The translations under genes and the position numbers were made by a program. This document shows positions 13,949-25,883 of a stretch of DNA of 46,431 nucleotides, in pieces (position 1 is the stretch's first letter; every line of letters begins with the position of its first letter). Source of the DNA: an uncultured delta proteobacterium (lineage in GTDB: Bacteria > Desulfobacterota > WTBG01 > CAIYCZ01 > CAIRTM01); assembly GCA_903881505.1 (NCBI GenBank), contig CAIRTM010000132.1:1-46431 (forward strand), read 5' to 3'. The notes beneath the pieces are model-generated. The model searched no databases and was not told the origin of the DNA. It saw only the letters and a list, made by a program, of their open reading frames with translations.

Positions 13949-14806
13949 ATGAACGTTTCCATCGTTATACCCGTACACAATGAAAACCAGGCGCTGCCCG
14001 CTCTTATCAGCAGTATCCGGCGCCATGTTCCGGACGCAGAAATTATCGTGATCGATGACGGCTCCACAGACGCATCCGCTGATACGGCGCGCAGGTCCGG
14101 CGTGCGCGTCATCAGCCACCCCTATAAAATTGGCAACGGTGCGGCAGTCAAAACCGGGATGCGAAGCGCCACCGGAGATACGATTGTGCTGATGGACGGC
14201 GACGGCCAGCACGACCCGTCCGACATACCTTCCATGCTCAGGCTGGCGGGTTCCTATGACATGATTGTCGGGGCGCGCTCACGCAGATCGCATGCCGGCA
14301 TTTTCAGGCTTGTCGCCAACAGCATCTACAACTTTCTTGCAAGCTATGTTACCAAATTTGCAATAAAGGACCTGACGTCCGGGTTCCGGGTCGTGCGCCG
14401 GGAAACCGCCCTGCGCTACCTGTGCCTGCTGCCCAACACATTTTCATACCCCACAACGATAACGCTCGCATTCCTTCGCAGCGGGCGCTCAATTTTTTAT
14501 ATCCCGATCACTGCCCTCCCGCGGGCCGGTGCGAGCAAAATACGACTGCTGCATGACGGATTCAACTTTCTGCTGATAATCATCAAAATCACGACGCTCT
14601 ATTCACCGCTGCACATCTTTCTGCCCTTGAGTTTCGTGCTGTTCATCCTGGGCCTTACAAACTATATGTACACCTACATCACGGACAACCGATTTACCAA
14701 CATGTCCGCGCTGTGCATTATCTCGGCGCTGATGATATTTCTGATGGGTCTTATCAGCGAACAAATCACCCAGATGCGCTACGATCGCATCGAGAATGGG
14801 GGATGA
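13949..14806 (+). CDS. GT2 glycosyltransferase of the polyprenyl-phosphate (DPM1-like) type, 285 aa
   Basis: The catalytic GT-A domain is clear: SIVIPVHNENQALPALI, IIVIDDGSTDAS and the metal-binding DGDGQHDPSDIP. ARSRRSHAGIFRLVANSIYN, DLTSGFRVVRRE and AGASKIRLLHDG follow, as in dolichyl- or undecaprenyl-phosphate sugar synthases. Two C-terminal membrane helices (about residues 225-280) anchor it. Such enzymes move a sugar from a nucleotide onto a lipid phosphate on the cytosolic side of the inner membrane. The next gene, 12 bases on, encodes an STT3-type oligosaccharyltransferase. The product probably supplies lipid-linked sugar for protein glycosylation; the sugar cannot be told. The start ATG follows GAGGA. 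Confidence 0.85.
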   Translation: MNVSIVIPVHNENQALPALISSIRRHVPDAEIIVIDDGSTDASADTARRSGVRVISHPYKIGNGAAVKTGMRSATGDTIVLMDGDGQHDPSDIPSMLRLAGSYDMIVGARSRRSHAGIFRLVANSIYNFLASYVTKFAIKDLTSGFRVVRRETALRYLCLLPNTFSYPTTITLAFLRSGRSIFYIPITALPRAGASKIRLLHDGFNFLLIIIKITTLYSPLHIFLPLSFVLFILGLTNYMYTYITDNRFTNMSALCIISALMIFLMGLISEQITQMRYDRIENGG

Positions 14807-14818
14807 GGCACACGCCGC

Positions 14819-17035
14819 ATGGGAGGTTCAAAAAAAAAACGAGCGCTCAACACACGGCAGCAGCCTGCCGCTCCGGCAACGGTCGGCGCCGGAACAGGCA
14901 TGTTCATGCGCATGCAGGCTGCATGCGACCGCTGTGCCCACAGGATCGCGCCGTGGCGTATACTGCTTGAAATCATCACGGTAACAGCCATTTTCGCGCT
15001 CGGCATTTTCTGCCGTATGGAGGACCTTTCGCAGTGGCGGAAAATCGAATCCCGTACGTTCTACGACGGCAAACCGATCCATGCCACGTTTGACGCCTGG
15101 TTTTACCTCAGCCTCGCCCAGGACCTGATCGACGGCACCTATGCGCAGCCCGATGAAAAGCGAGGCGTTCCGTACAGCCCGCGGCGTCCCGAGCCGCCTC
15201 CGCTCATCTCGATTCTGGCTGCAGCGACCGCCAAAGCGACCCACGCAAGCCTGTGCTGGGTTGGGGCGGTTATGCCGGCCATACTCGGGCCGCTGCTGGT
15301 TGTGCCCCTCTACCTGACCGGTCGTTTTTACGGCGGGATCATGTGCGGTCTGCTGGCGTCCCTCGTATCCGTTTTATATCCCTTTTATATCGTGCGCAGC
15401 AATATCGGCCGCTTTGACACCGACTGCATGATTCTACCGTTCTCGCTCAGCGCCTCATACCTGCTTATGCGCTTTGCTCTTATACGAACAGCGCGGCGCT
15501 ATGCGTATGCAGGCGCAGCCGTCGCTGTTTCGGCGCTGTTTTTGTGGTGGTGGGACCAGACGCCTGCGGCTGTGTGCGCGCTGACCGGGCTGCCCCTGCT
15601 GGCGGCACTGGCAATCTACTATCGCCCTGCGTTGCGCGAAGGACTTATCTTTTACGGTATTCTTGCCTGCGGCGCGGCAGCAGCGCTATGGTACATCGAC
15701 CCGGCTCTGCCGCTCAGGATTATCGAGCGGCTCTGGCGTGAATTTCTCTATATTACCAAAGACCAGTCAGGGAGTTTCCCGAATGTAGGTAAAACCATCA
15801 GCGAACAGTTCGTGCCTGAGTTTGCAAACATCGTCAATTCCACGACAACGAACAGCCTGTCATTCCTTTTTGCTTCTGCCGGATGCGTGCTTCTTGCCTG
15901 GCGCGAACGCGCCCGCATCCTTTTTCTGCTGCCGTTTGTCATAATGTCGTATCTGGCTTTCACAGCCGCAAACCGCTTTATCCTCTTCATGATTCCCCTT
16001 GCAGCCATCGGGACCGGATACGCAGCGTCTTGCATCTATCGGCTTTTGCACCGCGTCAGGCCGCTCGACGCCGTTGCCTGCACCGGGCTTGCAGCTGTGC
16101 TTGCGGTGCCGCTCTACACACACAATATCAGCAGCACGCGCATGCCGAAGGAGCCCGGTTTCATGGTGCAGGCCATGCACCGCATCCGCGAAATCACACC
16201 GCCGGACGCGGTTATCTGGGCATGGTGGGACCACGGCTATGCGCTGACCTATTATGCCCGACGGGCCACGATCAATGACGGTGCAATTCACGGCGGTGAA
16301 CTGACAGTATTCAACGCCATACCGTACACCACGGAAAACTTCCGCCTCGCGGCAAATTTTATGCGGTTCTATGTGGGCCGCGGCATGCCGGGCATGCAGC
16401 GCGTATACCGTCAGTTTGGTAACGATCCTGCCCGCGGGATTCAATTTGTAAAAAATGTCCTGCAGGCGGGCCCTGAAGCGGCCCGCAGGCTGCTTGAGGC
16501 CGAGCTCAAACCGGAAGGCAACTGCACAACAACTGATGACTGGCTGCGCTTCTTTTTCCCGGGCAGGGCACGCCCCCTCTATCTGGTCTGCGACCACCTT
16601 CTGAACCGCACCGCGTACTGGTGGTACTGGTTCGGCTCATGGGATGCCGCTTCCCGCTCAGGCACGCATCCACAATTCAGGCCGTACGAGCAGATCAGCT
16701 TCGACCGCGCAACCGTACGGGGAGCCGGCAACCTCGCCATCGACCGCGCATCGGGTACCTGCCTGCAGGATAACCGCCGCATTCCGCTTGCCCGCATTGA
16801 TATGCACACGAGCGGCCGCACGAATACCCTTAACGACTACAACCGCAGCGGCCTGATTTTTGAATTTAACCGCGAACACCGCAACGGAGCCCTTATGGAC
16901 GCCGGCATTGCGGATTCGGTTTTCAGCCGATTATTTATCCGCATGCTGCCCGACACGCGCTATTTCAGGCCCGTCATCAACACTCCGCCTTTTTTTCAGC
17001 TCTGGGAAGTCCTCGGCGACACCTGTGAACCGTAA
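14819..17035 (+). CDS. STT3/PglB-type oligosaccharyltransferase, 738 aa
   Basis: This is a multi-pass membrane enzyme that transfers a lipid-linked glycan to Asn of secreted proteins. About 13 membrane segments are followed by a soluble periplasmic domain from about residue 440. All main active-site elements of the family can be seen. An early Asp stands in ATFDAWFY (Asp92). The D-x-D motif is RSNIGRFDTD (200-202). The TIxE loop motif is GKTISEQF (326-329), and Arg386 falls in TAANRFILFMIP. The catalytic-domain signature is WWDHGY (469-474), where Campylobacter PglB has WWDYGY. The last 40 residues (ALMDAG...FRLFIRML-like pattern, ending QLWEVLGD) align with the PglB tail. The N-terminal 40 residues are basic and cytosolic. 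It follows the GT2 gene in one operon. Confidence 0.88.
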   Translation: MGGSKKKRALNTRQQPAAPATVGAGTGMFMRMQAACDRCAHRIAPWRILLEIITVTAIFALGIFCRMEDLSQWRKIESRTFYDGKPIHATFDAWFYLSLAQDLIDGTYAQPDEKRGVPYSPRRPEPPPLISILAAATAKATHASLCWVGAVMPAILGPLLVVPLYLTGRFYGGIMCGLLASLVSVLYPFYIVRSNIGRFDTDCMILPFSLSASYLLMRFALIRTARRYAYAGAAVAVSALFLWWWDQTPAAVCALTGLPLLAALAIYYRPALREGLIFYGILACGAAAALWYIDPALPLRIIERLWREFLYITKDQSGSFPNVGKTISEQFVPEFANIVNSTTTNSLSFLFASAGCVLLAWRERARILFLLPFVIMSYLAFTAANRFILFMIPLAAIGTGYAASCIYRLLHRVRPLDAVACTGLAAVLAVPLYTHNISSTRMPKEPGFMVQAMHRIREITPPDAVIWAWWDHGYALTYYARRATINDGAIHGGELTVFNAIPYTTENFRLAANFMRFYVGRGMPGMQRVYRQFGNDPARGIQFVKNVLQAGPEAARRLLEAELKPEGNCTTTDDWLRFFFPGRARPLYLVCDHLLNRTAYWWYWFGSWDAASRSGTHPQFRPYEQISFDRATVRGAGNLAIDRASGTCLQDNRRIPLARIDMHTSGRTNTLNDYNRSGLIFEFNREHRNGALMDAGIADSVFSRLFIRMLPDTRYFRPVINTPPFFQLWEVLGDTCEP

Positions 17036-17968: not shown

Positions 17969-18508
17969 CTATGGCCGCATAAAACGGCTCGGCAGGCGAG
18001 TGAGGCAACGGAATGCGGCAAGAACAGATGCGCGCGCCCGCGGCGCTGCAACGCAGGCCAGCCTGCGCCCGCAGGCGCTCAAGGCACGCATGAACGCAAA
18101 CAGAGCCTGCCAGTACAGGCCAGCCAGGCGTCCGGCAAGGCGATGCCTCAGATGTGTCAAATCACGGACATGCCCGTTGTGTTCAATGTGTATCACGCGA
18201 CCGATTAACGAGGATGCCGGAAACATGCCGGGGAACAACATGTTATCTCCTTTTTCACGGAACCACAGGCAGCCGTCCTGGTAAAAACTGCCGACAACAC
18301 GGTGGGCCACGAGGATGCCGGGGCGTTCAAACAGGGCTATATCCCCTGCTTTCAGCGACCGGTCTGCGGTAGCCGGCAGAAACGTCAGTGTGCTCCCATC
18401 GCATATCAACGGATACATACTCACCCCGGCTGTTTCAATTTTTCGCGGACGGCTGCCTGAACGGCACAGTTCTATGCATTGTTCTCTGAGCAGCCGGCCT
18501 GAATTCAT
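17969..18508 (-). CDS. S24/S26 signal-peptidase-like serine protease (Ser/His type), about 179 aa
   Basis: The core reads ETAGVSMYPLICDGSTL, with nucleophile Ser30 in the S-M-x-P box. KAGDIALF, LVAHRVVG (His69 where E. coli-type signal peptidases have Lys) and REKGDNML follow. This is the Ser/His arrangement of SipW and ER-type signal peptidases. There is no obvious N-terminal membrane anchor. The C-terminal 60 residues are helical and very basic. ATG 18508 is my start, but ATG 18634 would add 42 residues; neither has a good ribosome site. It is the last gene of the minus-strand run with the C25 protease, the kinase-like protein, the peptide and the PqqD-like protein. It may therefore cut the peptide or a protein made by this locus; that is inference. 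Confidence 0.65.
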   Translation of the reverse strand: MNSGRLLREQCIELCRSGSRPRKIETAGVSMYPLICDGSTLTFLPATADRSLKAGDIALFERPGILVAHRVVGSFYQDGCLWFREKGDNMLFPGMFPASSLIGRVIHIEHNGHVRDLTHLRHRLAGRLAGLYWQALFAFMRALSACGRRLACVAAPRARASVLAAFRCLTRLPSRFMRP

Positions 18509-18698
18509 GAGCTTTTTATCCGGGATGCGTTCACAACTGGCCTTTGGGTCCGCACTTCGAATGTCTGCAGGATCAAACGCCGGGCCGGGCCGGGCAGCAC
18601 ACCCCAGCCAGCGCGCAGCATTGATGCATGTCAAAACTATTGGCTATTGCCCCATTCCCGCATGCCCGGTTCCTGATCGGACATCCGCAAAGATCCGG

Positions 18699-21600
18699 CT
18701 ATTGAATCTGAATCACTCCTTGGCAGTCGCCAACGCTGATCCGGTATGTGCCGGGGGCGGTGCCGGCAGGCACAAGGACCTTGGCCTTTACAAATCCTTT
18801 TTTGACATTGACTTTGGGCTCAATCACCTGCACGAATGGCGATGTATCGACAGCTTTCAAGGGATCAAAACCCTGGCCGCCTGAGATACGCAGGCTGAGT
18901 TTTTTGTCCTTCTTAAGCCTGGCGGAAACCGGGGGCTTATATTTTATAGACAGAGCACACTGTGGAACACATACATAATCTGTACACGTATATGCCCCCC
19001 CGCAGTCTATGTCATTCATGCATTCGACGCACCGGTCAAGTGCCTCATTGCACACCGGTGTACCGCCGCTGCAGGGATCTCCGGTCTGCGCGCACACGCC
19101 GTTCGTGCACTGGGGATCACCGGTGCAGAACAGAGCGTCGTCAGCGCACTCATTGTCTGTCGCGCATTCAGGATCAGTGCCTTCAATTTTAAGCTCAAGC
19201 GCGGGATCACCGAACAGTATAAACGTTTCCAGAAGATCACGCGAGTTCGTCTGCTGATAGGCCTCAATTTTTGCCGCCGTAAGCAGCGCGCCGGAAGCCG
19301 TAATACGTTTATTGAAAAGGGCTTCATACATCTGCGTGCCCAGCACCTTGTGATGCGAGGGCAGCCCTGAAGCGCTCGGAGCCACACAAACTACGGCGCC
19401 CCTGTCCGGTTGACGAACAAATTCCTCAGCCGTGGCATAGTCGTCGACAACTTCGGAAAACGTACCGCTCAGGCAGTTAAGAATTAGGGCAAAGGTATAC
19501 CTGTCCGTATTGGTCAGCAGTGCAACATCATCGCGGGTTGTGCCGGTATTCTGATTCGGTGTCTGAAACCATTTTCGGTTCGACCATGTATCAGTAGAAC
19601 CATGGCCAATGTAAGTAGTTATCAAAGCACCATTGCTGATTTCATCAATCAGGTCTGCCGTAGCATCAGGGACTGTAGCGTAGGTACTCAAATACATGTT
19701 GCGTATAGTAAAATCAGAGGGCAGTTTCGTACTCAGCGATTGCGCCATGTCTTCAAAAACATTCTGATCATCGGAATCGACTGCAAAAATTGCCCGCTTA
19801 TGCCACGGCTCATACTCGACTCCCTCATAAGCACTGATTTTATCAATGATGTTGTGCAGATCATCGTTTGTTTTAACACACAAACGGCCGATTACCATGT
19901 CAGGCAATGGATCATCACCGTCAACACACACAAACCAGTTGTCAGAAGACGTGGCTCCGACACTCGGGCCGAGGCTGCCGCGATAGCCCAAATATGTCGG
20001 TATCAGATCGGCTTTGCCTTCAGATGCTCGGCCCAGATTATCGCGGTAATCGTAGGTGGCGTCTCCGACAAGCACGACATAGGTTGGGTGATCCGCTGCA
20101 TTCCAATGTTGGTAGGCATAGCTCAAAAAATCCTTAATGGCAGTTACATCCTTGATACCGTACGAAAATTCATCATATATGTCCTGGATATCAACAATCT
20201 CAACACCGAGGCCGGCCTGCTCACGTAATGTTTTAAGCTGCGCAAGCGTTGCGGCAAACTGCGCATGCGTAATAATGATGTAATCAATATCAGTGCGCGG
20301 CTGCTTTAGGTTTGAGGGTGTGTCAACAGAAAACGAAACCGGCGCACGTGATGATCCAGGGTTCACTGCGAAAAATTCAGAGCTCTGCGTAACAATGTAT
20401 TCGAAACGGGCTTGTGAAACCCCAGCGTCAGCAGTAATCTCGAGACCGCTCAGCAGCACCGGTGCTTCCGGCTGGCTGACATCAAAAACCATGATGTCGG
20501 AACCGGTAAAGCCATCCAACTCAAACGTCGTACCGCCGGCGCTGTCTGAGCCGAATGCAAGCCGGTTATTGTCGGCAGTATAGCGCTGAGCATAGGTCAA
20601 CTCAGCCCAATTGACATAATACTGATCGGGCGAAGATGGCGGATTATCAGCCGTCACGGCCTGAACGGTCAGGGTATTCATGCCGTTATTGAACAGGGCT
20701 GGTGAAAGACCGCTGATCGCTCTTCGCTCAATAGCCGTGCCTGCCCATGCAAAATCTGCAATCTGCGTACCGTTCAGCAACACCCGGGAGCGGTGGTTGA
20801 AAATGCTCACCCCCCGCAGACACAGCTCGATGTCAAAGGAACCGGCATCAGAGGCAAAATCATTGAGTGTAAAGGTCATTGCATGGGTTGTAACACCGAA
20901 AATATTGAGCAGCTGCCAGAACCATTGATCCTCTCCATCCGCATAGTCGGGAAGATTGCGCCGCCAGACCAAATCGTGCTCAATGCGCATTGATGTCGTA
21001 AACGAAGAAGGCTTTGGAAACCCGCTGACCGGCGCACTTTCAACAGTCCGCATCGCTAATCCGTCGCTGCTTCCCTGATACAGCCAATAGGCATTGGTTG
21101 CACTGTACTCACTCTGGAAATCCTCAGCATAAAAAAGAATGTAGTCACCTTCTGCAAACGGACCTGTGCCGCTGCGGTACACCGCGATTTCCCGGCCGAG
21201 GTTTTCAATTTTAATATTGCTGTTCGTCAGGCCGGCCATGTCCACGCCAAGGCTGTTAATATCATCATACGTTAAGCGGTGAACACCCGGACCTGATGTT
21301 AGAATCCGTATTGCGAAAGGACTGTCCACCATCTCGCCTGAAACCCGGAATTGCGCCGGGGCGAGCCCGTGAGCGGACGGCACACGCGCAAAACGGGAAG
21401 CTGGATTAATAACGGTTCCGGTACGAATGGTGTCAAACACCCGGGCAGCTCCGTCAACCGGTTCCTGGGCAGGCGGTTCGTTTACAACACTGCCCCCGTC
21501 TGAAGTCTGAAACTGAAGCGTCAGGGTCATGCTGCTCGCAACGCGCAGCATGCGCTGTACAGGGTTATACTGTGCGGGCGTTATCAGTATCTCCGCATAC

Positions 21601-22073
21601 TGCATGCCGCGCAGAATACCGGTAGCCGTGATTTCCGCAGGTCGTTCCGGGAGGTAGGCATCACGTTTATAGACGTTCCGATCATGTACGAACTGACTGT
21701 CTGAAAACCCTTCGCTCATAGTGCTGTCCGACGCGGGCTCAGCAACTGGCGCAAGATTCACGGAACGGTACTCCCGGACGGCGTGCACATCAATCGTGAG
21801 TGCAACCCGGGCGCCGGGGGGAATTGCAACCATCACAGTCCGGGCAACTACAGCCGGCATGCCTGACTCATGGCAGGCGCTGAAACCGTCAAGCGAGCAG
21901 GCAACCGAGCCACCATCTCCGGCGGGGATAAAAACAGGCTCAGGAACATCAACGGCAATCACCACAGAACTGGGAGTTTCAGCAATGAAACTGATCCCCT
22001 GAACAGCGATTGCCGAGCCCGGCAACGCAAGCAGGCACAGCACCATGAAAAGCAAGCAAGGACTTTTTTTCAT
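18699..22073 (-). CDS. secreted C25 (gingipain-type) cysteine protease with Cys-rich tail, 1124 aa
   Basis: A signal peptide (residues 1-23, ending GSAIA) leads into an N-terminal beta-rich propeptide-like region to about 590. The peptidase C25 domain spans about 596-965. It has DYIIITHAQF, YVVLVGDATYDYRD, the catalytic His824 in YIGHGSTDTW and Cys867 in LILNCLSGTF, then ILFGDPALEL. Residues 969-1040 hold about 15 Cys in CxxDxxC-type repeats (CATDNEC, CMNDIDC), probably disulfide-bonded and therefore extracytoplasmic. A C-terminal beta domain of about 80 residues ends the protein. Gingipains cut after Arg or Lys, but specificity cannot be read here. No type IX or LPXTG sorting signal is clear. 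It lies between the HPr-kinase-like and signal-peptidase-like genes on the same strand. Confidence 0.88.
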   Translation of the reverse strand: MKKSPCLLFMVLCLLALPGSAIAVQGISFIAETPSSVVIAVDVPEPVFIPAGDGGSVACSLDGFSACHESGMPAVVARTVMVAIPPGARVALTIDVHAVREYRSVNLAPVAEPASDSTMSEGFSDSQFVHDRNVYKRDAYLPERPAEITATGILRGMQYAEILITPAQYNPVQRMLRVASSMTLTLQFQTSDGGSVVNEPPAQEPVDGAARVFDTIRTGTVINPASRFARVPSAHGLAPAQFRVSGEMVDSPFAIRILTSGPGVHRLTYDDINSLGVDMAGLTNSNIKIENLGREIAVYRSGTGPFAEGDYILFYAEDFQSEYSATNAYWLYQGSSDGLAMRTVESAPVSGFPKPSSFTTSMRIEHDLVWRRNLPDYADGEDQWFWQLLNIFGVTTHAMTFTLNDFASDAGSFDIELCLRGVSIFNHRSRVLLNGTQIADFAWAGTAIERRAISGLSPALFNNGMNTLTVQAVTADNPPSSPDQYYVNWAELTYAQRYTADNNRLAFGSDSAGGTTFELDGFTGSDIMVFDVSQPEAPVLLSGLEITADAGVSQARFEYIVTQSSEFFAVNPGSSRAPVSFSVDTPSNLKQPRTDIDYIIITHAQFAATLAQLKTLREQAGLGVEIVDIQDIYDEFSYGIKDVTAIKDFLSYAYQHWNAADHPTYVVLVGDATYDYRDNLGRASEGKADLIPTYLGYRGSLGPSVGATSSDNWFVCVDGDDPLPDMVIGRLCVKTNDDLHNIIDKISAYEGVEYEPWHKRAIFAVDSDDQNVFEDMAQSLSTKLPSDFTIRNMYLSTYATVPDATADLIDEISNGALITTYIGHGSTDTWSNRKWFQTPNQNTGTTRDDVALLTNTDRYTFALILNCLSGTFSEVVDDYATAEEFVRQPDRGAVVCVAPSASGLPSHHKVLGTQMYEALFNKRITASGALLTAAKIEAYQQTNSRDLLETFILFGDPALELKIEGTDPECATDNECADDALFCTGDPQCTNGVCAQTGDPCSGGTPVCNEALDRCVECMNDIDCGGAYTCTDYVCVPQCALSIKYKPPVSARLKKDKKLSLRISGGQGFDPLKAVDTSPFVQVIEPKVNVKKGFVKAKVLVPAGTAPGTYRISVGDCQGVIQIQ

Positions 22074-22080
22074 GTCAAAT

Positions 22081-22111
22081 CCTTCAGACTTGACAAACCT
22101 TCAGACCTGAC
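22081..22111 (-). repeat. tandem 14-base direct repeat at the ribosome site of the C25 protease
   Basis: CCTTCAGACTTGAC (22081-22094) and CCTTCAGACCTGAC (22098-22111) differ at one base. Read on the minus strand, each copy ends in CTGAAGG, so the Shine-Dalgarno sequence is duplicated just upstream of ATG 22073. In the nearer copy GTCAA and TTGAC could pair across the ribosome site. Confidence 0.6.
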
Positions 22112-22165
22112 TCTTATATGTAGCATTATTTTGTTTATCACTCAGTACTTTAAAAAAGCGGGTAT

Positions 22166-22183
22166 AAAAAATAATTATTTTTT
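22166..22183. promoter_or_regulatory. 18-bp perfect A+T palindrome upstream of the C25 protease gene
   Basis: AAAAAATAATTATTTTTT is an exact palindrome in the 125-base gap between the kinase-like gene and the protease gene, just after the kinase stop. The stem of A and T could act as a weak terminator or a protein-binding site. A separate promoter for the protease is plausible here but I cannot fix its hexamers. Confidence 0.35.
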
Positions 22184-22198
22184 AATAAATAACAACCA

Positions 22199-23359
22199 TT
22201 ACCATCTAATAGTATCAACCATTTCTACCATCATGTCAAGGTTGCCAGGATTCAACTTGTAGCAGGGAATGTTTGCAAGCAAACGGCCAAGCAGCATTGC
22301 CAATGAAGCATTTTTGCCGCCTAAAGACGCAAGCAGACTTCCTGCCGGAGAACGATTAACAATATTTGCCATCACCGATGAAACAGCATCAAACCTAGTG
22401 ATCGGCCGCATCACCGGGTTGCGTTCAAAGGTATCTATCTCTCCCCTGTAAGGGAACACGGCAAAAATCTCATGATTGTATTGTTTCCAAATGCTGTTAA
22501 ACCGTTTTACAAAAGCTGTACGGTCAGCAGCAGCAACCCTAAATACAGGATAGCGTCCCCTCATGACCGGTCCGCTCAGTGTTACATCTGGCAGATGCCT
22601 GAGAGCATCGGGAACGCCGCTCTCCTCAGTACACAGGTAAATATCCAGAACCACCCCGCGGGGCGGACAGACACTGGCATCAACCGTACCGCAGATTTCA
22701 ATACATGCGCCAATCGGACAAGGCTGGGCCGAACGCGCCGGATCGGCGGCAGCGCAGTCAAAAAAATCCTTATCAAGGGAGCTGTGCACAAGCGCCCTTT
22801 CTGAATGAATACGACGGTACAGCGGGCTTGTCCTTCGTATGCTCACCAGGCGTTCAAACGGCTCAACCATAAAATCCGACAACCTCACCGGGCAGAATTC
22901 ATCCGACATAAAGCCATAACCCCGGCCCACAAGCTCAAGTGTAAGCGTTGTCTTGCCGAATCCCGACTGACCATAAAAAACAACGGCCCTGCCCCGCCGT
23001 ACCACAACCCCGGCATGCAGCACAATATAGTCATCGATCAGCTCAGACAGGTGGCGAAACAGGATTAGCTCGGCATGATCGAGAAAACGCTCAGTGTCAG
23101 GAAGCGGATAGAAAGACTCGCCCACAAAAAGTGCAGGGCCCTGACAGCCGGTATATGAACGCAGAACACAGCATTCAATATCTAATACATCAGGCGGAGG
23201 TACAACGAAATGCTTATAAACAAGCGCCAACGTATTAACTGTATCACGATCATCGGAATGCAGCCTAACATGCCGTCCCCAGAATCGAAGCACACAGCTA
23301 TAGGGGCACTCATTAATCACCCGGTGCAAATGCAAATCTGGCACAATCAAAGATGGCAT
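22199..23359 (-). CDS. HPr-kinase/SerK-like P-loop protein, 386 aa
   Basis: The central region has the pattern of HprK-related kinases found in peptide-modification loci. DYIVLHAGVVV is followed by the P-loop YGQSGFGKTTLTLEL (about residues 129-143), and then YGFMSDEFCPV carries the acidic pair that in HprK lies after the P-loop. It lacks the N-terminal domain and long catalytic loop of true HPr kinase. Relatives are often annotated 'HprK-related kinase' beside PqqD-family proteins. One known relative phosphorylates a Ser of a lasso peptide precursor. I start at ATG 23359 because the longer frame from 23413 would run through an intrinsic terminator; no strong ribosome site is seen. Expression probably depends on read-through. 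Confidence 0.7.
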   Translation of the reverse strand: MPSLIVPDLHLHRVINECPYSCVLRFWGRHVRLHSDDRDTVNTLALVYKHFVVPPPDVLDIECCVLRSYTGCQGPALFVGESFYPLPDTERFLDHAELILFRHLSELIDDYIVLHAGVVVRRGRAVVFYGQSGFGKTTLTLELVGRGYGFMSDEFCPVRLSDFMVEPFERLVSIRRTSPLYRRIHSERALVHSSLDKDFFDCAAADPARSAQPCPIGACIEICGTVDASVCPPRGVVLDIYLCTEESGVPDALRHLPDVTLSGPVMRGRYPVFRVAAADRTAFVKRFNSIWKQYNHEIFAVFPYRGEIDTFERNPVMRPITRFDAVSSVMANIVNRSPAGSLLASLGGKNASLAMLLGRLLANIPCYKLNPGNLDMMVEMVDTIRW

Positions 23360-23367
23360 AGTCTTAC

Positions 23368-23402
23368 AAAAAAAAAGGGTTATACATGCAGCTGTATAAC
23401 CC
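23368..23402 (-). terminator. intrinsic terminator between the small peptide gene and the kinase-like gene
   Basis: On the minus strand GGGTTATACA pairs perfectly with TGTATAACCC (10 bp, 6-base loop) and is followed by nine T. It starts 27 bases after the peptide stop codon and 9 bases separate the T run from the start of the kinase-like gene. This would make the peptide transcript short and abundant, with downstream genes reached by read-through. Confidence 0.9.
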
Positions 23403-23429
23403 GGAAAAGACATGGTGCAACAACAGAAA

Positions 23430-23537
23430 TTAACCCAGCTCGTCTTCCATGAAACTATTGTACGTCTGAGCAGGGCCGATTATCGCCGCTATCTCTTCTT
23501 CAGTATAGGTTGTAATTTTCGGTTTTTCGTACTTCAT
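23430..23537 (-). CDS. 35-aa precursor-like peptide of a candidate RiPP system
   Basis: ATG 23537 follows AGAGGTG at six bases, a strong ribosome site. The peptide begins MKYEKPKITTYTEEEIAAII, continues GPAQTYNSFMEDELG and stops at TAA 23430. The N-terminal Y3-x-x-P6-x-I8 resembles the leader motif that PqqD-like recognition domains bind in lasso-type precursors. The glutamate-rich middle could form a helix. After Gly21 the last 15 residues hold Thr25, Tyr26 and Ser28, possible targets for the adjacent kinase-like protein. It has two candidate promoters and its own terminator, and lies between the PqqD-like and HprK-like genes. I infer a leader plus core peptide; the leader/core border at or near Gly21 is a guess. 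Confidence 0.75.
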   Translation of the reverse strand: MKYEKPKITTYTEEEIAAIIGPAQTYNSFMEDELG

Positions 23538-23591
23538 GTTAAACACCTCTGTGCTGGATTGTCATAGGCTATTATTTCAGCCTTCATCTAG

Positions 23592-23620
23592 TATATAATG
23601 CACACAATAATCATTGTCAA
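23592..23620 (-). promoter_or_regulatory. strong sigma-70 promoter of the small peptide gene
   Basis: On the minus strand TTGACA (23620-23615) and TATATA (23597-23592) are exactly 17 bases apart, about 55 bases before the peptide ATG. The -35 is a perfect match and the -10 matches 4 of 6, or better in the overlapping register. Confidence 0.65.
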
Positions 23621-23633
23621 GTTGCGATTTCAT

Positions 23634-23662
23634 ATTATAGCAAAAAGTGCTCTGGTTCTTAA
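23634..23662 (-). promoter_or_regulatory. second candidate promoter upstream of the small peptide gene
   Basis: TTAAGA (23662-23657) and a perfect TATAAT (23639-23634) are 17 bases apart on the minus strand, just upstream of the nearer promoter. Together they would form a tandem pair in an A+T-rich 174-base gap. Confidence 0.45.
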
Positions 23663-23711
23663 TATTAGAGTTTATATCGTCATTATTACCAATATAAATT
23701 AGAAAAATTTA

Positions 23712-23984
23712 TTAAATCAAAAGTCCTTTCCGTTTAAACTCCGTCAAGGCAAGAGAAATATCGTCAGTGAGCCCAGACTCTGAATCCGGGTACTGAAGTG
23801 CCATTTCTCGCCTGATATCCTCCAAAGTATTCCTGCCATTGCACAATTTCCATATGGCATGTGCACTGTGGTTCAACACATGTATTTTTTCGCCATCGCT
23901 GTCATAGAGCATAACCTCATCGCCGATTGCCTGTGCGCTGATATCGCCCCGGGCTTCAGGCCGCGCATATGTGTCATTGGACAT
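23712..23984 (-). CDS. PqqD-family peptide-binding protein (RRE), 90 aa
   Basis: The protein has the PqqD/RRE winged-helix pattern. An N-terminal strand region ARPEARGDISAQAIGDEVML is followed by DSDGEKIHVLNHSAHAIWKL and helices with TLEDIRREMALQYP and LTEFKRKGLLI. PqqD-type domains bind the leader of a ribosomally made peptide and present it to modifying enzymes. The length is right for a stand-alone member. ATG 23984 follows GGAGCACAG. It is the first gene of the minus-strand run and is followed by the 35-residue peptide. No PQQ synthesis gene is nearby, so a PQQ role is unlikely. Confidence 0.85.
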   Translation of the reverse strand: MSNDTYARPEARGDISAQAIGDEVMLYDSDGEKIHVLNHSAHAIWKLCNGRNTLEDIRREMALQYPDSESGLTDDISLALTEFKRKGLLI

Positions 23985-24368: not shown

Positions 24369-25826
24369 CTAACCGTGCCGTACAGTTTTGAGTTTGTGCT
24401 TAACATATCCCGTCATACTGTATTTTAGCACATCCCAGCCTGCGCGCAGGATGTTGAGCATGATACAGGGCTTTCGAATCACTTTTAAAACATAGCGCGC
24501 AATCACTGCGGGCCGCAGGTAGAATTTCCTGAACATGCGGCGATGGCCGGCGATAAGCTCTTCCCGGGTCATCCCGTGCGGAATGAAAACAGGGTCCCAG
24601 AAACCGAGCTTGCGCCAGTCGCAGTCGAATGCGCCCCATTTCCGCCAGCTATCAAACAGCTCAGCACCGGGCATGGGCGTGCAAAACGTCACATGAAATT
24701 CCTTCAGCTTGCTGTCGCGCATGAAATCAATCGTTTTTTCGATGGTTGCAGGTGTCTCGCCGGGGCAGCCGATCATAAAATAGCCGCGTGTCGTAATGCC
24801 GGCATTGTTGGCCTGCTGTATCATTTGAACAACGCGGTCGATCTTAACATGCTTTTTCATGTTGTTTAGAATTTCCTGATCGCCGCTCTCGATGCCATAG
24901 GCAATCTGCCAGCACCCGGCCCGGTGTATGGTTTCGTAAAAATCCTTAGGCGTCAGGTCGGTCCGCGCAAGGCAGGACCAGGAAATGCGGTAATCGCGGC
25001 TGAGCAGCGCATCGCATATCTTCAGCACACGCCCCCGGTCCAGCAGAAAATTATCATCATAAAACATAATGTCCCGAATACCGTACTGGCGCACAAGATG
25101 ATCGACCATGGCCAGGGTGTATTCAGGGCTGTTGCTGCGATAGCGCTCGCCCATAAAGGGGCGCGCGCAGAACGTGCATGTTCCATTGCAGCCGCGAGAT
25201 GTCATCAAAGATGAAGACGGCAGCTGAAAATAGCTGTGCGGAGCGGGTTTATAATGCTTCGCAAGATCAGGTATCAGATCCCAGGCGGGAAACGGCAGCT
25301 CATCAAGATTCTCAATTAACGCCCGCGCGGGCGTCATAGTGATGTCATCCCGGTCGCGAAAAACCACGCCGCGGATATCATGATAGGAACTGCCGCTTTT
25401 ATTAGCCTCGATCACCTCAACGATGGTGTGTTCACCCTCGTTAATGACCCCGAGATCGAATTCAGGAAACTCACGCAGGGTCTGTTCCGGCAGAGCGGAA
25501 ACATGGGCGCCGCCGATAACAATAGGCGAACGCACACCGCCTGCCCGTAACCCCTGCGCAAGTTCAGCAGCACGGATAATCGATGCGGTTGTCGCGGTGA
25601 TACCGATCAGCGCTGCCCTTGTGCCCCCGACTTCGCGCACGGTCGCAGGCAGATCAAGGTTCAAGGCCGGAGCATCCAGTATGCCGGCACGGTGGCCGGC
25701 CTTCCTGACCGCAGCGGCAAGATAGCAGAGCCCCAGCGGCGGCGCCTGGCTGCCCACGGATGCAAATGCACCGTAGCGTTCTGCAAGTGTCAGGGGGGGA
25801 TTAACCAACAGGATATCAAGGCTCAT
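24369..25826 (-). CDS. B12-binding-domain radical SAM protein, about 485 aa
   Basis: I start at ATG 25826 (MSLDILLVNPPLTLAERYG), where the family sequence begins; upstream starts at 25859 and 25877 are also open. The N-terminal domain is cobalamin-binding-like: PPLGLCYLAAAVRKAGH, then IVIGGAHVSALPEQTL and FDLGVINEGEHTIVEVI. The radical SAM domain has the cluster motif in SRGCNGTCTFCARP (CxxxCxxC). It continues with FYDDNFLLDRGRV and YGIESGDQEILNNMKK and GYFMIGCPGETPATIEKTI. Members methylate or rearrange lipids, antibiotics and cofactors (HpnP, BchE and others); the substrate here is unknown. It is separated from the peptide locus by the tRNA. Confidence 0.88.
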   Translation of the reverse strand: MSLDILLVNPPLTLAERYGAFASVGSQAPPLGLCYLAAAVRKAGHRAGILDAPALNLDLPATVREVGGTRAALIGITATTASIIRAAELAQGLRAGGVRSPIVIGGAHVSALPEQTLREFPEFDLGVINEGEHTIVEVIEANKSGSSYHDIRGVVFRDRDDITMTPARALIENLDELPFPAWDLIPDLAKHYKPAPHSYFQLPSSSLMTSRGCNGTCTFCARPFMGERYRSNSPEYTLAMVDHLVRQYGIRDIMFYDDNFLLDRGRVLKICDALLSRDYRISWSCLARTDLTPKDFYETIHRAGCWQIAYGIESGDQEILNNMKKHVKIDRVVQMIQQANNAGITTRGYFMIGCPGETPATIEKTIDFMRDSKLKEFHVTFCTPMPGAELFDSWRKWGAFDCDWRKLGFWDPVFIPHGMTREELIAGHRRMFRKFYLRPAVIARYVLKVIRKPCIMLNILRAGWDVLKYSMTGYVKHKLKTVRHG

Positions 25827-25861
25827 ACAGAAACGCGCCACACAGATGATACCGGGCATTA

Positions 25862-25883
25862 CCGCGCGTGTATACACACGCGG
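25862..25883. promoter_or_regulatory. 22-bp near-perfect palindrome upstream of the radical SAM gene
   Basis: CCGCGCGTGTA and TACACACGCGG are reverse complements with one mismatch, centred 47 bases upstream of the chosen start. The alternating purine-pyrimidine core and position suggest an operator, or a structure around the alternative starts. Confidence 0.35.

Follow-up and report, generated by a model that had tools for sequence, protein, structure and literature searches.

The locus described here probably makes a short phosphopeptide of the RiPP type by the route of the linear polyphosphorylated peptides (LPPs), with a product that serves exported proteins. It consists of five minus-strand genes within a window of 46,431 nucleotides from an uncultured delta proteobacterium (genome G000). 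The gene order, the peptide family, the motif spacing, and the pairing with exported proteins were read from sequence, and we infer binding, phosphorylation, and cleavage from the LPP system. All five ORFs that the first-pass annotation had named across 17969-23984 were confirmed, and its family assignments were upheld: a PqqD-like protein, an HprK-related P-loop protein, a C25 protease with a propeptide and a signal peptide, and an archaeal-type S26 homologue, together with a 35-aa peptide (Table 1). Orthologue alignments suggested that the real starts of the kinase and S26 genes are probably near 23359 and 18508, respectively, downstream of the listed start codons. On the opposite strand (window positions 13949-17035), genes for a glycosyltransferase and a PglB/STT3-like oligosaccharyltransferase end approximately 1 kb from the S26 gene.

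Table 1. Features of the locus, in window coordinates
Feature	Position	Strand	Evidence
PqqD-like discrete RiPP recognition element (RRE), 90 aa	23712..23984	-	PF05402, 47.4 bits (cut-off 23.4); orthologues adjoin the peptide in G003, G004, G006, G010, and G013
Promoter-like site TTAAGA-17-TATAAT, TG ahead, upstream of peptide	23634..23662	-	Consensus scan only
Precursor-like peptide gene, 35 aa counted from the ATG, MKYEKPKITTYTEEEIAAIIGPAQTYNSFMEDELG	23430..23537 (including stop)	-	Family alignment A1; matches in relatives; mostly synonymous change versus G001
Predicted leader, YEKPKI (RRE-binding motif) to GPAQT	23463..23537	-	YxxPx[IVL]-GPA distance of 18; YxxP role from PMC13381572 and PMC12710340
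Predicted core YNSFMEDELG; Ser28 is position 3 after Thr25	23433..23462	-	Inferred from LPP cleavage after Thr-1 and phospho-Ser3 (PMC13381572)
Terminator-like hairpin, GGGTTATACA-GCTGCA-TGTATAACCC then nine T, in peptide/kinase gap	23377..23402	-	Arm GGGTTATAC invariant in five genomes
HprK-like P-loop kinase	22199..23359 (listed ORF to 23413)	-	TIGR04352, 66 bits; invariant residues; PEPCK/HprK fold match
Secreted C25 protease, PorU/gingipain-like, signal peptide, catalytic His824 and Cys867	18699..22073	-	PF01364, 299 bits; closest solved relative PorU 6za2
C-terminal domain of C25 protein	18702..18959	-	Common to 11 other proteins in the window genome
S26 archaeal-type (Ser72/His111) signal-peptidase-like protein	17969..18508 (listed ORF to 18634)	-	TIGR02228, 38.2 bits; orthologue alignment; no clear TM segment (hydropathy)

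Judged by its conservation, the 35-aa ORF is a genuine gene rather than a chance ORF, given that relatives match it at E values of 1e-5 to 1e-8 and that it differs from its counterpart in the congener G001 by mostly synonymous change. When it was used as a query against 147 relatives, the congener matched at 78% identity and the peptide was present in most genomes from its family and order, at up to nine copies per genome; a profile search of 395 genomes of the phylum added one distant carrier, G337. The conservation of the peptide in related genomes, named in the first-pass annotation as a check of its proposal of a RiPP-like locus, was found in the congener, the family, the order, and G337. 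The peptide family has nine operon-borne members and some twenty dispersed copies, all built as YxxPx[I/V/L], then GPA[Q/H/N][T/A], then a short variable tail, with P6 and GPA invariant in alignment A1. The distance from YxxPx[IVL] to GPA was 18 in each of the 13 peptides tabulated. Between the window genome and G001, 11 of the 24 aligned codons carry synonymous differences only and four amino acids are changed, and the codon comparison indicates purifying selection on the leader. The two tails are completely different, which suggests that the core may be weakly constrained in this genus. Within one genome, tails hardly vary. In G001 (locus L042, contig C198), the peptide gene (752-880) and the next gene (867-2117, 416 aa, before the kinase) share an identical 21-bp end, GGCGTTGAATTCGACTGATGC, which gives both proteins the ending GVEFD; recombination or an assembly artefact could account for this. 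We considered GVEFD as a sorting motif and discarded it because the 21 bp are identical as DNA.

Several families of uncultured Thermodesulfobacteriota share this gene order, which runs PqqD, peptide, in most relatives a radical SAM gene, HprK-like kinase, C25/PorU-like protease, and S26 protein, in agreement with the earlier expectation that the order would be conserved. G006 has exactly the window order; G004, G010, and G003 (over two contigs) have this order with a protein of 460-480 aa between peptide and kinase; and G013, G091, and G337 carry related clusters. In G337, which belongs to a distant family, one cluster holds the peptide, radical SAM, kinase, and C25 genes, a gene for a protein with the shared C-terminal domain (CTD) discussed below, and the S26 gene, with the CTD protein encoded between C25 and S26. 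The C25 gene of G337 (L110, 12665-17385) is in two ORFs, possibly through a frameshift or as two genes. Parts of the operon are absent from G005 and G009, perhaps through missing sequence. The C25 protease was present in 8 of 10 peptide-bearing genomes versus 2 of 137 others, a co-occurrence (Fisher p about 4e-10) that ignores phylogeny and is confounded by shared ancestry. The statement in the first-pass annotation that the protease is linked to the peptide by position only can be revised on this basis. C25 paralogues in genomes lacking the peptide occur in G027 and G099. In G099 (C16, 22058-25240), a single ORF apparently fuses the FN3-like domain of alignment A2 with a C25 protease.

The protein of 460-480 aa is a PqqD-radical SAM-SPASM protein whose nearest known proteins are peptide and sulfatase maturases, with all scores below the cut-offs. 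A Cys directly follows GPA[QHN][TA] in all six operons with the radical SAM gene versus none of the three without it (one-sided Fisher p of 0.012, ancestry ignored). These three operons, in the window, G001, and G006, encode Tyr, Val, or Met in the Cys position, and all three peptides have Ser at +3 (YNS, MTS, and VTS). A second peptide of the window genome (G000:C95, 6787-6894, L041, GPAQACGGFSGSVM) carries the Cys and is a counterexample to the pairing, unless the 3.4-kb run of N bordering it conceals partner genes. We found no radical SAM maturase matching the enzyme of the relatives elsewhere in G000. A B12-radical SAM gene at 24369-25877 of the window was rejected as the missing maturase, given its HpnJ/BchE type, its position on the far side of a tRNA gene, and its lack of a match to the enzyme of the relatives. 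The second PqqD gene of the genome (G000:C131, approximately 20313-20507) overlaps an ATP-grasp-like gene and belongs to a separate PqqD system; it was rejected as a partner of the peptide, given this neighbor and the lack of a GPAQ peptide there.

The remaining enzymes retain their catalytic residues in orthologue alignments (for the C25 and S26 proteins, those in Table 1). In the kinase, His133, Gly153-Lys-Thr-Thr, and Asp171 are invariant among six orthologues. The kinase-like ORF matched TIGR04352 (HprK_rel_A) with an E value of 3e-18, below the model's cut-off of 200 bits, and its predicted fold, of moderate model confidence (pLDDT 75.7), matched the PEPCK/HprK superfamily. The C25 protein scored 262 bits against the PorU-type sortase model NF033707, below the cut-off of 420, and is nearest to PorU among solved structures. 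The S26-like protein fell below the cut-off of the archaeal type I signal peptidase model (51.85 bits), and its G006 orthologue was above it at 57 bits.

The hairpin in the gap between peptide and kinase is an addition to the first-pass observation. In each of the five genomes in which its arm is invariant, it occurs in one place, always 3' of the operon peptide, and two outer base pairs show compensatory change. Terminator-like hairpins follow most peptide genes, and no Rfam family matched this one. Such a hairpin could let the cell produce more of the peptide than of the enzymes.

The evidence for a link to exported proteins comes largely from relatives. In G005 and G010, all 17 precursor genes outside the operon adjoin, on the same strand, a gene for an exported CTD protein, and most of them sit 48-130 bp after it. 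These exported proteins have unrelated N-termini and a common C-terminal domain of about 100 aa (alignment A2), which had no Pfam or NCBIfam match and for which AlphaFold2 predicted an FN3/Ig-like fold (pLDDT 91.6). Seven peptide-bearing genomes have from 9 to at least 33 copies of this FN3-type domain, and the others have at most 3. The pairing of precursor and exported protein is known from relatives and not from the window, given that the window genome has only one FN3-type CTD protein; its exported proteins carry a different C-terminal domain. This second domain (about 85 aa, with two conserved Cys) ends the window C25 protein and 11 other G000 proteins, encoded on contigs C11, C87, C77, C120, C26, C57, C85, and C10. 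It has 12 copies in G000 and 9 in G001, is nearly absent elsewhere, and is unknown to Pfam. Neither shared domain matched a Pfam or NCBIfam tail family, including the C-terminal sorting domain of type IX secretion.

Among characterized systems, the LPPs of Bacillota, published in 2026 (PMC13381572), come nearest. LPP loci combine an RRE, a YxxP precursor, an HprK-like kinase, and an archaeal-type signal peptidase that acts as leader peptidase, cutting after Thr-1; Ser3 is the residue that the kinase phosphorylates (PMC13381572). The locus shares with them the discrete RRE, the YxxPx[V/I] leader, the kinase, the archaeal-type signal peptidase, a variable core, and Thr|xxSer at the border of leader and core, a spacing that GPAQT|YNS keeps. 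Given that the window has all LPP core parts and Thr25-Tyr-Asn-Ser28, and that Ser is at +3 in the other peptides lacking a radical SAM partner, we predict the same chemistry. The maturation model of the first-pass annotation, in which the peptide is bound by the PqqD-like protein, phosphorylated in its tail, and trimmed by the signal-peptidase-like protein, matches these steps, including the Thr|xxSer spacing, and is well supported by analogy with LPP. The description of the locus as undescribed was too strong for the core of RRE, kinase, and signal peptidase because LPP has been published. LPP precursors have the motif YxxPxVLxHQxIxFETxxS, and LPP loci include an NTP transferase and an MsbA-like transporter (PMC13381572). 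The window peptide has YxxPxI and TxxS but not HQxIxFE, and neither an NTP transferase nor an MsbA-type exporter was found among the window ORFs scanned with Pfam, and for these reasons we do not class the locus as LPP. It instead adds a PorU-like C25 protease and a conserved hairpin and, in relatives, mostly a radical SAM enzyme and precursors paired with exported proteins, in another phylum.

The locus is not a member of the lasso peptides either, in agreement with the first-pass annotation. It resembles paeninodin-type lasso clusters with an HprK-like kinase (PMC9266682) in its PqqD-like B1 protein, its YxxP-type leader, and a kinase targeting a precursor Ser, but it differs in that no asparagine-synthetase-like macrolactam synthetase was found among the ORFs scanned and the leader-peptidase candidate is S26-like rather than a transglutaminase-type B2 protease. 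Like type IX secretion with PorU and CTD cargo (PMC4560394, PMC4804311), it combines a C25 protein nearest to PorU with many exported proteins sharing one C-terminal beta-sandwich domain; unlike it, the locus has RiPP genes and a tail domain outside the known tail models. SprA had no matches in 24 genomes, in a search run without a positive control. The SynChlorMet cassette and the HPr-rel-A system (NCBIfam TIGR04248-04251, TIGR04352-04353) likewise combine a PqqD family protein with an HprK-related kinase, and SynChlorMet has radical SAM/SPASM proteins as well. All scores against these models were, however, far below the curated cut-offs. To our knowledge, neither has C25, S26, or GPAQ peptide members. 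Literature searches returned nothing on HprK with PqqD and RiPP, nor on PorU with radical SAM.

We therefore favor a mechanism in which the PqqD-like protein would bind YEKPKI of the precursor and present it to the HprK-like kinase, which would phosphorylate Ser28. The apparently soluble S26 protein would then cut at about GPAQT|Y to remove the leader, which would leave a free peptide of some 10 residues. The PqqD-radical SAM-SPASM enzyme of most relatives may modify the Cys after GPAQT, a step predicted to be missing from the window lineage, which has neither enzyme nor Cys. The shared C-terminal beta-sandwich, the PorU-like enzyme, and the precursor genes beside cargo genes suggest that the modified peptide has a part in how exported proteins are handled, perhaps as a tag. 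The C25 protease would most likely process exported proteins and might attach the peptide to them. In Bacteroidota, PorU removes the cargo C-terminal domain and attaches the remaining protein to A-LPS (PMC4560394, PMC8545088). It is doubtful, though conceivable, that the PorU-like transpeptidase uses the modified peptide as nucleophile or adapter and attaches it to the cut end of exported proteins, where it would replace the lipopolysaccharide of Bacteroidota as a covalent surface tag.

The same genes could instead encode the precursor of a secreted phosphopeptide, a signal or antimicrobial with no tie to exported proteins beyond common transcripts, and the C25 protease would trim the exported peptide or unrelated proteins. 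We think this unlikely. Lasso peptides are secreted products, a terminator-like hairpin follows most peptide genes, and the near-identical copies fit a need for dosage, but we recognized no dedicated exporter, a free signal would not need precursor copies beside shared-CTD genes, and the tails scarcely vary within a genome. It is very improbable that the five genes are chance neighbors, with PqqD, kinase, and peptide forming one pathway and the C25 and S26 proteins acting in protein export. The generic roles of the latter two and the C25 paralogues in genomes lacking the peptide would fit this, but the order is shared by several families, including distant G337 with a CTD protein inside the cluster, and the co-occurrence of C25 and peptide, ancestry ignored, also argues against it.

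For the window genus, the peptide might be an unmodified regulator or chaperone in a pathway that has been decaying since the radical SAM gene was lost, with the leader kept for binding only. The joint absence of that gene and the Cys, the different tails in G000 and G001, and the duplicated 21-bp end in G001 are consistent with decay. We regard it as quite improbable, given that the kinase, C25, and S26 proteins retain their catalytic residues, Ser +3 is kept in all three peptides without a radical SAM partner, and the leader is under purifying selection.

A phosphopeptide serving exported proteins, if true, would make ribosomal peptides parts of protein export or surface anchoring rather than free metabolites, and the arrangement hints at a novel means by which secreted proteins are tagged or sorted. 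No function is known for LPP products, and the LPP-like pathway seen here, in a different phylum, suggests one. New relative to LPP are the PqqD-radical SAM enzyme of most relatives, which tracks with the Cys after GPAQT, the conserved hairpin found once per genome, and the extra precursor genes beside exported proteins with a shared FN3-like end. These gene pairs are direct test cases, and the fixed leader spacing and operon-specific hairpin make the peptide family easy to locate. Peptide matches were absent from PHROGs and from PLSDB plasmids, a planctomycete match (L079) was a segment of an integrase-like protein and was rejected as a false positive, and weak matches in G053, G267, G270, and G273 (18-21 bits only) were left out of the counts. 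The relatives come from lake samples; those with names are uncultured Deltaproteobacteria/Thermodesulfobacteriota, and every one that could be named is a MAG.
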